A program made the position numbers and the translations under genes. The notes beneath the pieces are model-generated. The model was not told the DNA's origin. It saw only the letters and a program-made list of their open reading frames with translations, and searched no databases. Source: Rhodospirillaceae bacterium SYSU D60007 (lineage in GTDB: Bacteria > Pseudomonadota > Alphaproteobacteria > Reyranellales > Reyranellaceae). From it: DNA of 64,000 bases. Shown one piece after another: positions 50,118 through 54,666 of this stretch. The stretch is taken from contig QOCQ01000006.1 in NCBI GenBank assembly GCA_003574685.1, forward strand, positions 124,001-188,000, given 5' to 3'. Numbering within the stretch: position 1 is the first letter of the stretch; the number at the start of each line of letters is the position of its first letter.

Positions 50118-50137
50118 GCGCCACTGGAGTGGTGCGC
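50118..50137. repeat. Short core copy of the accD-flanking palindromic element
   Basis: Contains CGCCACTGGAGTGG, the same core found at 25091-25103, with GCGC on both flanks, but lacks the GCTGGGGGC ends. Lies in the 53-base gap between aroE and the ABC-type gene. Confidence 0.55.
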
Positions 50138-50161: not shown

Positions 50162-52876
50162 ATGGAAAAGAACCTGTTCAAATACATCTGGCGGCACAGC
50201 CGCCACGAGCAGCTCATCATCCTGCTGCTGGTGGTGGTGGCGCAGGTCTTTTATTTCGCCTCCCTGAACCTGCCCAAGGCGATCGTCAACGACGGCATCG
50301 AAGGCAAGGCGTTCCAAAATCAGGCCGAAGTGCCGTTTCTGCGTCTTAGCGTACCGGTCCCCGCGTTCGTGTCGGAGTCCGGCTCGGTTACGCTGTTCGA
50401 GGGCATCCCGCTGACGCAATGGCCGTACCTGGTTGGCATGAGCTGCCTGTTCCTGGTGATGGTCACTGTGAACGGGCTCTTCAAGAAGACGATCAACACC
50501 CAGAAGGGCCGCATGGGCGAGCGCATGCTGCGGCGCCTGCGCTACGAGCTCTATGACCGCATCCTGCTGTTCCCCAGCGCGCATTTTCGCAAGGTCAAGG
50601 CGGCCGAGCTCAGCGGCATGATCAAGGACGAGGTGGAGCCGCTGGGCGGCTTCATCGGCGATGCCTACGTGCAGCCGGCCTTTCTCGGCGGCCAGGCGCT
50701 GACGGCGCTACTCTTCATCATGCTGCAGAGCGTCTGGCTGGGCATGGTGGTGATTGCCGTGCTGGCCGTGCAGGCGTTCATCATACCGCGCCTGCGCCGG
50801 CGCATCCTCGTTCTCTCCCGCCAGCGACAGATCACGGCACGCCAGCTCGCCGGCCGCATCGCCGAGTCGGTCGATGGTATCCACGAGCTGCACACCAATG
50901 CCACCACCAACTACGAGCGCGCCGATATCGTGCAGCGCCTGGGAACAATCTTCAAAATCCGCTTCGAGCTCTTCCAGCGCAAGTTCACTGCCAAGTTCCT
51001 CAACAACCTGTTGGCCCAGACCACGCCCTTCATGATCTATCTGATCGGCGGCTATCTGGTGCTGTTCGGCGACATGCAGATCGGCAGCGTGGTGGGCGTC
51101 CTGCTGGCCTACAAGGACCTGCCCGGTCCGGTGAAGGAGCTGATCGACTGGGACCAGCAGCGCCAGGACGTGCAGCAGAAATACGAGCAGGTCGCCGAGC
51201 AGTTCGAGCCCGATGGCATGTTGGCCCGCGAGCTGCAAGTCGTGCCCGACGGGCCGCTCGCGCCACTCTCCGGCGAGGTTGTGCTCTCGAACGTCACCGT
51301 CGCCGAAGACGGTGGCGCAAAACCGATCGACGGGGTGAGCCTCGCCGCGCCGCTGGGCCGGCGGGTGGCGCTGGTGGGCCCGCCGGGCGGCGGCAAGGAA
51401 GTCGTGACGCAGGTGATCGCGCGGCTGGTACGGCCCTCTGGCGGGACAGTGCGGATCGGGGATGCCGATCTCGCGAACCTGCCGGAGGCGGTCAGCGGCG
51501 CGCGTATCTCCTATGTCGGGCAGGACGTCTATCTGTTCCCCGTCAGCGTGCGCGACAACATTCTCTATGGCCTGAAGCGGCGGCCCCTGAAACCGGCCGT
51601 GTACGAGGGGGCGGCGCAACGCGAATGGGGGCGTTTCTTCGCCGAAGCGCGGCGCGCCGGCAATCCTGAACTGGATGCCGGCGCCGACTGGATCGACTAC
51701 GAGGCGGCCGGTGCGTCGGGAGCAGAAGACATTGACCAGCGCATCATCGAGGTGTTGCGCGTCGTCGAGATAGACGAGGACATCTACCAGTTCGGGCTGC
51801 GCGGCACGATCGATGCCAAAGCGCGGCCGGCCGTCGCCCGATCGATCCTGCTGGCGCGCGACGAGCTGCACGCAAGGCTCGCCGATCCGGCGCTGTCGGC
51901 GCTGGTCGAACCGTTCGACCGGGCGCGCTACAATCGCAACATGTCGGTCGCCGAGAATCTGCTGTTCGGCGTGCCGATCGACAAGACGTTCGATCCTGAC
52001 AATATCGCCGCCAATCCGCATATCCGCGCGGCGCTGGAGCGCGTCGGGCTCACTGACGACCTGCTGCAGATGGGCGCCAGCATCGCGGAGACCATGGTCG
52101 AGCTGTTCGCCGACCTGCCGGCTGGCCATCCGTTCTTCGAGCAGTTCAGCTTCATCGCGGCCGAGGATCTGCCGGACTTCCGCACCATTCTCACGCGGCT
52201 TGCCGGCCGGAGTCTCGCCGATCTCGATGCGGCGGCACGTGCCCGGCTGGCGGCCCTGCCGTTCCGCTACATCGAGGCGCGCCATCGCCTGGGATTGATC
52301 GACACCGCGATGGAAGAGCGGTTGCTCGCGGCCCGGCGGGCCTTCGCCGAGAACCTGCCGGCCGAGGATGCGGACGCCATCGAGTTCTACGACCGGCACA
52401 GCTACAACAGTGCCGCGACGCTGCAGGACAACATTCTGTTTGGCCGCATCGTTTATGGGCAGGCGCAGGGGCCGCAGCGCATCAGTGCGCTGATTGCCGA
52501 AGTGCTGGAGGGGCTCGGCCTGCGCACGGCGGTGATCGAGGTCGGGCTGGACTACAATGTCGGCGTGGCCGGCAAGCGCCTGTCCGCCGCCCAGCGTCAG
52601 AAGGTGGGTCTGGCGCGGGCGCTGGTGAAACGGCCGGACCTGCTGGTGCTGAACGAGGCCACGGCGCTGTTCGACAACGCGGCGCAGCAGCGGCTGCTGG
52701 ATACCATCCTGGAAGCCTGCAAGGGGCGCGGCGTGATCTGGGCGCTGAGCCGCGCTAATCTTGCCGACCGGTTTGACCAGGTGATCGTGCTTCAGGGCGG
52801 CAGGGTGGCAGCCAGGGGCGCACCGGAGGAGTTGTCCGCGGACAAGACTTTTGCCGACCTGCTGGCGGCGGGCTGA
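50162..52876 (+). CDS. ABC exporter-like membrane protein with degenerate ATPase motifs and a large internal insertion
   Basis: 904 residues from ATG 50162. Residues 1-330 form an exporter-type membrane domain (hydrophobic segments from LIILLLVVVAQVFYF on, with a periplasmic loop of about 55 residues after the first). The ATPase follows but its motifs are altered: Walker A is GPPGGGKE (406-413; Lys kept, Ser/Thr replaced by Glu), Walker B ends LLVLNEAT (Asp to Asn at 831, Glu832 kept), the signature is LSAAQ (807-811) instead of LSGGQ, and WALSRANLAD has no H-loop His. Between Q-loop (YVGQD) and signature there are about 345 residues instead of about 60, with three DNI-type motifs at 461-470, 594-603 and 752-761. 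Likely low or no ATP turnover; possibly a sensor or regulated transporter. Followed 18 bases later by a cyclic-nucleotide-binding gene. Confidence 0.85.
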   Translation: MEKNLFKYIWRHSRHEQLIILLLVVVAQVFYFASLNLPKAIVNDGIEGKAFQNQAEVPFLRLSVPVPAFVSESGSVTLFEGIPLTQWPYLVGMSCLFLVMVTVNGLFKKTINTQKGRMGERMLRRLRYELYDRILLFPSAHFRKVKAAELSGMIKDEVEPLGGFIGDAYVQPAFLGGQALTALLFIMLQSVWLGMVVIAVLAVQAFIIPRLRRRILVLSRQRQITARQLAGRIAESVDGIHELHTNATTNYERADIVQRLGTIFKIRFELFQRKFTAKFLNNLLAQTTPFMIYLIGGYLVLFGDMQIGSVVGVLLAYKDLPGPVKELIDWDQQRQDVQQKYEQVAEQFEPDGMLARELQVVPDGPLAPLSGEVVLSNVTVAEDGGAKPIDGVSLAAPLGRRVALVGPPGGGKEVVTQVIARLVRPSGGTVRIGDADLANLPEAVSGARISYVGQDVYLFPVSVRDNILYGLKRRPLKPAVYEGAAQREWGRFFAEARRAGNPELDAGADWIDYEAAGASGAEDIDQRIIEVLRVVEIDEDIYQFGLRGTIDAKARPAVARSILLARDELHARLADPALSALVEPFDRARYNRNMSVAENLLFGVPIDKTFDPDNIAANPHIRAALERVGLTDDLLQMGASIAETMVELFADLPAGHPFFEQFSFIAAEDLPDFRTILTRLAGRSLADLDAAARARLAALPFRYIEARHRLGLIDTAMEERLLAARRAFAENLPAEDADAIEFYDRHSYNSAATLQDNILFGRIVYGQAQGPQRISALIAEVLEGLGLRTAVIEVGLDYNVGVAGKRLSAAQRQKVGLARALVKRPDLLVLNEATALFDNAAQQRLLDTILEACKGRGVIWALSRANLADRFDQVIVLQGGRVAARGAPEELSADKTFADLLAAG

Positions 52877-52894: not shown

Positions 52895-53341
52895 ATGAGC
52901 ATCCACGAGGAAGTCGAGCTGCTGAAGACCGTGCCGATCTTCTCCAAGATCGAGCCGGCGAAACTGAAGCTTCTGGCGTTCACCAGCGAGCGGCTGACCT
53001 TCGAGCCGGGCCAGGAAGTGTTCCACCAGGGAGACGTCGGGGATGCCATGTACGTCATCCTGGGCGGCTCGGCCGACGTGATCATCGAGTCGCCGGCGGG
53101 GCCCATCAAGGTGGCGGAGCTGCAGCGCAACGGCTTCGTCGGCGAAACCGCCATCCTGTGCGACATGCCGCGCAATGCCACCATCAGGGCGCATGAGCGG
53201 CTGACGGCGCTGAAGATCCCCAAGGAGATGCTGTTTCAGTTGATCGACCAGTTTCCGCAGGTGGCGATCGAGATGATGCGCGAGCTGGCACACCGCGTGG
53301 AGGACATGAACGTCAAGCTGCGCGAAGCCCGCGCCGCGTAG
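52895..53341 (+). CDS. Cyclic-nucleotide-binding domain protein
   Basis: 148 residues consisting almost only of one CRP/cNMP-type beta-roll: LLKTVPIFSKIEPAKLKLLAF, FEPGQEVFHQGDVGDAMYVILGGSADVII, and FVGETAILCDMPRNATIRA at the phosphate-binding cassette (Glu and Arg present). There is no DNA-binding helix-turn-helix and no kinase domain, only a C-terminal helix (RELAHRVEDMNVKLREA). It starts 18 bases after the ABC-like gene with a GAGGAG site, so the two are one transcription unit; it is probably a separate ligand-sensing subunit for that protein. Confidence 0.88.
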   Translation: MSIHEEVELLKTVPIFSKIEPAKLKLLAFTSERLTFEPGQEVFHQGDVGDAMYVILGGSADVIIESPAGPIKVAELQRNGFVGETAILCDMPRNATIRAHERLTALKIPKEMLFQLIDQFPQVAIEMMRELAHRVEDMNVKLREARAA

Positions 53342-53367: not shown

Positions 53368-53506
53368 CCTTCCCCCGGAGGGGGAAGGTGCCCGAAGGGC
53401 GGAAGGGGGATGTCCCAACCCGCTCGGCGTTTCGTCTTTGACGCCGTGCTTGTTGAGGCATCCCCCTTCCGGCGCTGGCGCGCCACCTTCCCCCTCCGGG
53501 GGAAGG
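53368..53506. repeat. 139-bp palindromic intergenic element, copy A
   Basis: Outer arms CCTTCCCCCGGAGGGGGAAGG and its near-complement at the right end, inner arms GGAAGGGGGATG / CATCCCCCTTCC, and a central part of about 50 bp. The centre matches the reverse complement of the element at 58416-58555. Occupies nearly the whole gap between the cyclic-nucleotide-binding gene and the VOC/hydrolase fusion; the fusion frame is open through it, but its ATG lies beyond the repeat. Confidence 0.85.
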
Positions 53507-53520
53507 AAAGGACGGCGGCC

Positions 53521-54666
53521 ATGACCGAGCTGCCGGCGGCTGCGCTGCGGGGGCCGTCGGGGTATGCCGGCGTGGCGGTGGGGGTGGCGGATCTCGCGGC
53601 ATCGGTCGCCTTTCACCGGCAGTGGCTGCCGCTGCTGGGCTTCCGCCGCGTCGGCAGCGATGAGCAGCGCACGCTTTTCATGCGGCGCTACGATCACCTG
53701 ATGCTGCGCCAGATGGCGGACGCGCGGCCGCAGCCAGGCGGCATTACGATCGCGCTTGCAGCCGATAGCCGCGCGCAGGTCGACCAGGTGTACGAGCGGC
53801 TTGTGGAGCTTGGCGCGGACATTCTGAATCCTCCCAAGGAACAGGCTTACTTCGCGCCGGGCTACTATTCCTGTGCGGTGCGCACGCCCGACGGGCTGCG
53901 CTTCGACATCGTGCACCGCTGGACCGATTTGCCGGAGATCGCCGGCGCGGAGCGGGTACGTCTGGAAGGTGCTGATGGCGTCCCTTTGGGCGGCTATCTG
54001 TTCAGGCCCGAGGCCGGCAAGCCGCCCTATCCGGCGCTGGTGCTGCTGCACGGCTTCGGCCGCAACGCCTGGACGGAGCGGCATCTGGCCGAGCTGGCGG
54101 CCGCCTCCGGTTACAAGGTGCTGGTGCTGGCCTTGCGCGGCTGGCTGGGCTCGGAAGGCGACAGCGATCAGGGCCTGCGCCAGCCCGATGACGTCGTCGC
54201 CGCCATCGACTGGCTCCGCCGGTTGCCCTCCGTCGATCCCGGGCGGATCGGCCTGATCGGCGCCTCGATGGGTGGCCAGGTAGCGCTGCTGGCGGCCGCG
54301 CGACGGCCGGCGATCCGCTGCGTGGCGGCGCTGTTCCCGCCGACCGACCTGGAGCAGTGGTATCTCGCCAACCCCCACATGCAGCCTTACCTCGACGACC
54401 TCGACAATGCGGCCGGTCTGCGAGCACGCTCGCCGGTCCATCATGTGGACGAGATCGAGGCCCCGGTGCTGCTGATGCACGGCGATGCCGACGAGAACGT
54501 CCCGCTTGAGCAGAGCCTGCGCATGACGGAGACGCTGCGCGCGGCCGGCAAGGAGGCGGAACTGCTGATCGTATCGGGCGCCAGCCACTTCTTCTCGGTG
54601 CGGGAGAACGCCATCGCCCGCCAGAGCCTGTTCGCCTTCCTGCGCCAGCACCTGGGCCGACGCTAG
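53521..54666 (+). CDS. Fusion of a VOC (glyoxalase-like) domain and an alpha/beta hydrolase
   Basis: 381 residues from ATG 53521. Residues 10-135 are a VOC domain: GVAVGVADLAASVAFHRQWLPLLGF, and ending TPDGLRFDIVHRW, with candidate metal ligands. Residues 150-381 are an alpha/beta hydrolase of the dienelactone hydrolase/prolyl oligopeptidase kind: LVLLHGFGRNAW, nucleophile Ser in IGLIGASMGGQVALL, acid in LLMHGDADENVPLEQ, and His in GASHFFSVRENA. All triad members are visible. A two-step lactone or ester-degrading function is possible but unproven. Single gene; GGAAGG lies some 15 bases upstream, partly in the repeat. Confidence 0.88.
   Translation: MTELPAAALRGPSGYAGVAVGVADLAASVAFHRQWLPLLGFRRVGSDEQRTLFMRRYDHLMLRQMADARPQPGGITIALAADSRAQVDQVYERLVELGADILNPPKEQAYFAPGYYSCAVRTPDGLRFDIVHRWTDLPEIAGAERVRLEGADGVPLGGYLFRPEAGKPPYPALVLLHGFGRNAWTERHLAELAAASGYKVLVLALRGWLGSEGDSDQGLRQPDDVVAAIDWLRRLPSVDPGRIGLIGASMGGQVALLAAARRPAIRCVAALFPPTDLEQWYLANPHMQPYLDDLDNAAGLRARSPVHHVDEIEAPVLLMHGDADENVPLEQSLRMTETLRAAGKEAELLIVSGASHFFSVRENAIARQSLFAFLRQHLGRR

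Follow-up and report, generated by a model that had tools for sequence, protein, structure and literature searches.

The ABC exporters closest to the protein that we describe here are the homodimeric type IV transporters MsbA, Sav1866, and BmrA, which have one helical subdomain and intact ATP motifs, and the heterodimeric transporters TM287/288, TmrAB, and Pdr5, in which one of the two ATP sites is canonical. Exporters of the NHLM and HetC types are associated with a cyclic-nucleotide-binding (cNMP-binding) domain. In these exporters the cNMP domain is on the N-terminal side, or there is a peptidase domain. ABC proteins are usually taken to have one invariable helical subdomain, and the tandem triplication that we describe below departs from that. 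The gene in question is in a 64,000-nucleotide stretch of the genome of Rhodospirillaceae bacterium SYSU D60007 (this whole stretch is the window).

An exporter fold with three tandem helical subdomains

The gene and the main parts of its product are as follows.

50162..52876, + strand: ABC-exporter-like half-transporter, 904 amino acids (ABC_membrane and split ABC_tran matches; open reading frame; structure model)
50162..51202, + strand: type IV exporter transmembrane domain, residues 1-347 (Pfam, structure match, conservation)
51542..51880, + strand: helical subdomain copy 1, residues 461-573, with N466 and R566 (canonical profile, score 59.2)
51923..52351, + strand: helical subdomain copy 2, residues 588-730, with N599 and R725 and extra helices at 657-708 (self-comparison, insert model, VIA, profile)
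52403..52627, + strand: helical subdomain copy 3, residues 748-822, with N757 and R819, the copy nearest to canonical (profile, score 89.9)

The 904-residue protein has the type IV ABC-exporter fold, with a six-helix membrane domain fused to a C-terminal nucleotide-binding domain (NBD), but it does not have the single helical subdomain expected between the Q-loop and the signature: there are three copies in tandem. We count residues from the ATG at 50162; an alternative GTG start at 50129 is likewise open. Pfam identifies PF00664 (E = 6.5e-14) and PF00005 (E = 4.3e-18), with the ABC_tran match in two stretches. The AlphaFold2 model of the full protein (pLDDT 85.3, pTM 0.78) resembles solved exporters along the whole predicted chain (Z of about 29-30), and the NBD core closes normally around the insert (the ComA NBD matches model residues 367-902 with Z 30.6 and 1.8 A over 238/239 residues). 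In an alignment of 82 family members, residues 1-360 are the most conserved of all regions (2.87 bits per column, versus 2.33 for the N-terminal NBD core), and charged and polar residues of the membrane domain are invariant. The model also has short strands at residues 57-84 (50330-50413), between the first membrane helices, which may be a small periplasmic element.

The original prediction drew attention to three DNI-type motifs, and they are where it placed them: VSVRDNILYG at 461-470, MSVAENLLFG at 594-603, and ATLQDNILFG at 752-761, with spacings from Asn to Asn (N466, N599, and N757) of 133 and 158 residues. The FD..YN or YDR..YN segment before the motif is, as it also noted, present in copies 2 and 3 only. 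These motifs are not due to chance: the protein contains [DE]N[IL]L[YF]G three times, while of 20,000 shuffled versions 11 contained it once and no version contained it twice. All three Asn residues are among the 25 invariant columns of the family alignment, R566 and R725 are also invariant, and R819 is nearly so. An insertion of about 345 residues had been claimed as well. In 56 of 57 members the insert is indeed 321-345 residues long (in the remaining one, 408), but the true excess over a canonical exporter is about 300 (the stretch 471-806 has 336 residues, from which the canonical N-to-signature distance must be subtracted).

The suggestion that these motifs reflect an internal duplication of the helical subdomain is supported by the self-alignment. 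Unit 2 (552-652) and unit 3 (712-805) align with a score of 97.4 over 89 columns, versus 17.3 for the best of 40 shuffles. In profile-profile self-comparison, unit 1 is also similar to unit 2 (36.8; best shuffle 16.6) and to unit 3 (29.3; best shuffle 17.9). We also built a profile of the canonical helical subdomain, from the Q-loop to the signature helix, from 13 canonical exporter NBDs, and used the best of 60 shuffles as a control. Copies 1, 2, and 3 scored 59.2, 32.4, and 89.9 (shuffles: 18.3, 16.5, and 21.0), and two control stretches, one from the middle and one from the membrane domain, scored 11.3 each. In the alignments with this profile, N466, N599, and N757 take the position of the DNI Asn, and R566 and R819 that of the ARA Arg; in copy 1, the Q-loop Gln aligns with Q454.

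Structure prediction agrees. When the insert is modeled alone, AlphaFold2 gives a pLDDT of 92.0 and a repeated strand-helix-strand-helix-helix order. In VIA-align, the best 33 of the 50 listed rows for this model are all ABC proteins (Z of 6.2-3.4), although the separation is modest, as the first unrelated row has Z 3.3. Nearly all of these ABC rows align model residues 118-260, which correspond to residues 588-730 of the protein, with the stretch from the Q-loop to the signature helix. In an example row, residue 588 aligns with MsbA 425 and residue 730 with MsbA 498. By MsbA motif numbering, N599 would then correspond to N436 of MsbA, and R725 to the Arg in the helix of LSGGQ, as judged from the ends of the range only.

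Because the self-comparison, the canonical profile, the AlphaFold2 model, and the VIA rows agree, we are confident that the helical subdomain has been triplicated in tandem, although we did not examine how the copies are oriented relative to each other. Could the insert instead be an unrelated helical domain, with repeated motifs that arose by convergence or chance? Two results would fit such a domain: plain Foldseek, run with the insert alone, gave no hits at E <= 0.001, and solved structures searched by profile gave none at E <= 1. Nevertheless, the shuffle controls, the matches to the canonical profile, and the consistent VIA rows oppose this explanation, and no structure result points to an unrelated domain. 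It was already disfavored, and we consider it extremely improbable.

Whether each repeat includes a signature helix is less simple. Direct comparison of the units with the signature gave only noise (9.3 for unit 2 and 13.9 for unit 3), and on that test we rejected the idea. The canonical profile revived it for copies 1 and 3, by placing R566 and R819 on the ARA Arg. For copy 2, the only basis is the ends of the VIA alignments: a forced global profile alignment puts E643, not R725, at the ARA Arg, and sequence alone does not place R725.

The ATP site across the family

The duplication proposed by the original prediction is supported, but that prediction missed both the degenerate ATP site and the cNMP-binding gene discussed below. 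The altered motifs are in two places.

51377..51400, + strand: degenerate Walker A, GPPGGGKE, with Glu in place of Ser/Thr (Ser/Thr in 9/82 members)
52580..52675, + strand: degenerate signature LSAAQ and Walker B LVLNE, with the D-loop Asp kept, residues 807-838 (82-member alignment)

An active ATPase would be expected to have GK[ST], LSGGQ, DE, and the H-loop His, and the window's protein has GKE, LSAAQ, NE, and no His. Its relatives are similar. Across the 82 aligned members, the Walker A Lys is retained in 49/82, the Walker B Glu in 36/82, and the D-loop Asp in 75/82, so nucleotide may still bind. The Walker A Ser/Thr is present in only 9/82, the Q-loop Gln in 26/82, the Walker B Asp in 20/82, the H-loop His in 14/82, and the signature Gly residues in 4/82 and 7/82, and no aligned member has an intact LSGGQ (0/82). 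When we scored eight canonical ATP-site residues, no member had all of them and the best had five. Thus, degeneracy of the ATP site is a feature of the whole family, and the site probably does not hydrolyze ATP (the lack of hydrolysis is inferred from sequence).

These genes are not decaying, because the frames are open in the genomes searched (except for one row with an internal TAA and one with an internal TAG) and because conservation is higher in the membrane domain than in the NBD core. A different objection is that ATP still drives export by this protein: what remains of ATP binding, or slow hydrolysis, would power transport, and the cNMP-binding protein would only modulate it. The often-retained Lys, Glu, and D-loop Asp, the intact fold of the NBD core, and the GKT and H-loop His that two members (L027 and L028) keep would all fit with this. 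We consider it unlikely because of how rarely the Walker A Ser/Thr, the signature Gly residues, the Walker B Asp, and the H-loop His are found.

In an ABC dimer, a composite ATP site is formed by the Walker motifs of one NBD and the signature of the other (PMC7756269). Neither site of a homodimer of this protein would then be canonical. This also bears on the possibility that the protein is the degenerate half of a heterodimer whose canonical half is encoded elsewhere. Half-transporters with such degeneracy have been described (PMC7756269). But the signature and the Walker motifs are both changed in the same chain, so that neither composite site would be canonical, and the recurrent neighbor clusters contain no second exporter half (we did not seek a partner elsewhere in the genome), while the constant partner is the cNMP gene. 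So, a heterodimer seems very unlikely.

The cyclic-nucleotide-binding partner

Directly downstream of the transporter gene is a small gene that had not been listed; at 148 amino acids, it falls below a 150-aa cutoff for open reading frames.

52895..53341, + strand: stand-alone cyclic-nucleotide-binding protein, 148 amino acids (PF00027, E = 4.7e-19, the sole Pfam match)

It starts 18 nt after the stop codon of the transporter gene and is preceded by GAGGAGA. We searched for its counterparts with a profile of the PF00027 domains of fused members and of the S. meliloti neighbor. In 80 of the 83 non-redundant members, a cNMP-binding domain adjoins downstream or is fused at the C-terminus. By position, and including duplicates, 122 of 137 loci have the partner downstream within 700 nt, 11 were called as fused (one of these, L020, is probably a frameshift), and 4 lack it. 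In the family tree, the fused members are on one side of a branch. Five loci (L038-L042) are from one family of genomes with two or three divergent paralogs, whose cNMP domains are fused.

The Gly-Glu and the Arg of the phosphate-binding cassette make up the ligand motif of cNMP-binding domains. The partner has them, and they are intact across the family: Gly in 80/80, Glu in 73/80 (with Asp in the other 7), and Arg in 80/80. On pSymB of S. meliloti, the transporter and partner genes are side by side, and Sinorhizobium records annotate the counterpart as a Crp/Fnr transcriptional regulator. Pfam finds no helix-turn-helix or other DNA-binding domain in the 148-aa protein, so it does not qualify as a CRP/FNR factor. 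In the 5.3-Mb genome that contains the window, PF00211, the domain of class III nucleotide cyclases, is matched 29 times. We therefore have little doubt that the transporter and the cNMP-binding protein are functional partners, although binding of one to the other is inferred.

As three of the 83 non-redundant members have no partner, a cyclic nucleotide is not needed in every member. Of the eight ATP-site residues scored, they retain 5, 5, and 4, and these counts are among the eight highest of 82. They are on one side of a branch, that is, a single lineage, so the correlation with ATP-site residues is only a lead. Counting all loci, the lineage that lacks the partner and retains more of these residues is L021, L027, L028, and L122; downstream of the last three is a gene that, by eye, resembles tRNA-guanine transglycosylase.

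The degenerate ATP site and the near-constant cNMP partner suggest that a second messenger switches this transporter and that ATP does not drive it. Alternatively, the protein may not transport anything and may be a membrane-bound cyclic-nucleotide sensor or scaffold. SUR, an ABC protein that regulates a channel, is an analogy, and such a role is compatible both with the missing ATP-site residues and with a signaling domain as the constant partner. We think that it is quite unlikely, because conservation is highest in the membrane domain, whose invariant charged and polar residues suggest that transport is conserved.

Distribution, possible function, and comparison with known systems

Strong matches to the protein (E of about 1e-250 or lower) are found in 17 of 21 near genomes, and of the 385 genomes sampled from the class, 128 carry the family (E <= 1e-100), usually once. 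The insert profile has one match in the window's own genome and one to three in nine others. Among 398 genomes drawn from the phylum, 31 match at E <= 1e-5, and all are assigned to the same class. Named carriers include Reyranella, Vineibacter, Dongia, Kiloniella, and Pelagibius, and there are members on plasmids of Rhizobium and Sinorhizobium. Some metagenome-assembled genomes labeled as betaproteobacterial (L102, L106, L108, L110, L112, L115, and L128) carry the family, due to transfer or to mis-binning, which we cannot exclude.

Other neighbors are less constant. (We clustered neighbors from codon-scored gene calls, as antisense frames in GC-rich DNA confounded earlier clustering.) Glycosyltransferases are nearby in 27 of the 50 non-redundant loci with at least 3 kb of upstream sequence (their families were typed in two loci) and are absent near the window's own locus, so we rejected them as a family-wide feature. 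Methyltransf_17 was considered as a constant third gene and was also rejected: it follows in only 37 of 80 non-redundant loci, and in the window's own genome it is elsewhere on the contig. Upstream in the window are a Maf-like gene and a shikimate-dehydrogenase-like gene, and directly downstream (53410-54666) is a glyoxalase-like domain fused to an alpha/beta-hydrolase domain (Peptidase_S9/DLH-like).

How might a second messenger switch such a transporter? Two chains would form a homodimer whose NBDs no longer hydrolyze ATP productively. The extra helical subdomains could be a docking and lever module between the coupling helices of the membrane domain and the cNMP-binding protein. On binding cAMP or a different cyclic nucleotide, this protein would set the conformation that ATP sets in an ordinary exporter, and so might gate the passage of an envelope (glyco)lipid through a transporter or flippase. 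Gating by a cyclic nucleotide is inferred, and we rate its chances as somewhat short of even; the same goes for the combined proposal, in which a cyclic nucleotide takes over from ATP hydrolysis in gating a transporter of envelope (glyco)lipids. It is with less assurance that we picture a former exporter that is independent of ATP, with the three subdomains replacing the ATP sandwich as the force transmitter and the cNMP subunit opening or closing it. That the substrate is a glycolipid or polysaccharide, such as an envelope precursor, is a weak guess and on its own unlikely, especially as there are no glycosyltransferases near the window's locus. We found no biochemistry or model of the complex for any family member.

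The original prediction did not recognize the architecture from characterized transporters, and neither did we find a description of it. We found no Pfam or NCBIfam model for it (among the 25 NCBIfam matches listed, none reaches the cutoff), and in the open-licence PMC literature we recognized no publication on the family, judging by titles and the starts of abstracts. A search by term of PMC5498481, PMC6180224, PMC12239276, PMC3688454, and PMC5596199 found nothing on this gene. Triplication of the helical subdomain within an NBD fold that is otherwise intact, combined with a degraded ATP site in a family that is nevertheless widespread, is a natural case in which to ask what functions this subdomain has besides ATP binding. 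Also, the constant pairing predicts a direct link from cyclic-nucleotide signaling to envelope transport in Alphaproteobacteria, which could be tested in S. meliloti.

In S. meliloti, MsbA2 (SMb21191) has an operon near 938 kb on pSymB (PMC3687685). Like the family's ortholog, MsbA2 is an ABC exporter that is encoded on pSymB next to genes for glycosyltransferases, but the ortholog is at 841.7-845.0 kb, so it is a different gene. SMb20813, which is termed an msbA homolog in PMC10945364, may be the ortholog, but this is unproven as the record has no annotation.

The partner shares PF00027 with the CRP/FNR regulators that it is usually annotated as, but it has only 148 amino acids and no helix-turn-helix match. 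The NHLM and HetC exporters differ in that the family's cNMP domain is C-terminal or is a separate downstream gene, so the family does not fit their definition; no peptidase domain was found in Pfam scans of 8 members. With TM287/288, TmrAB, and Pdr5, the family has in common changed residues in the Walker, signature, and H-loop motifs, but in those transporters the second site remains canonical, whereas in this family a single chain has changes in both halves of the site, and the subdomain is tripled. Finally, the family shares the fold of its membrane domain and the order of its parts with MsbA, Sav1866, and BmrA (Z of about 29-30 with such chains), but in place of their one helical subdomain and intact ATP motifs, it has three helical subdomains, degenerate motifs, and a cNMP-binding partner.
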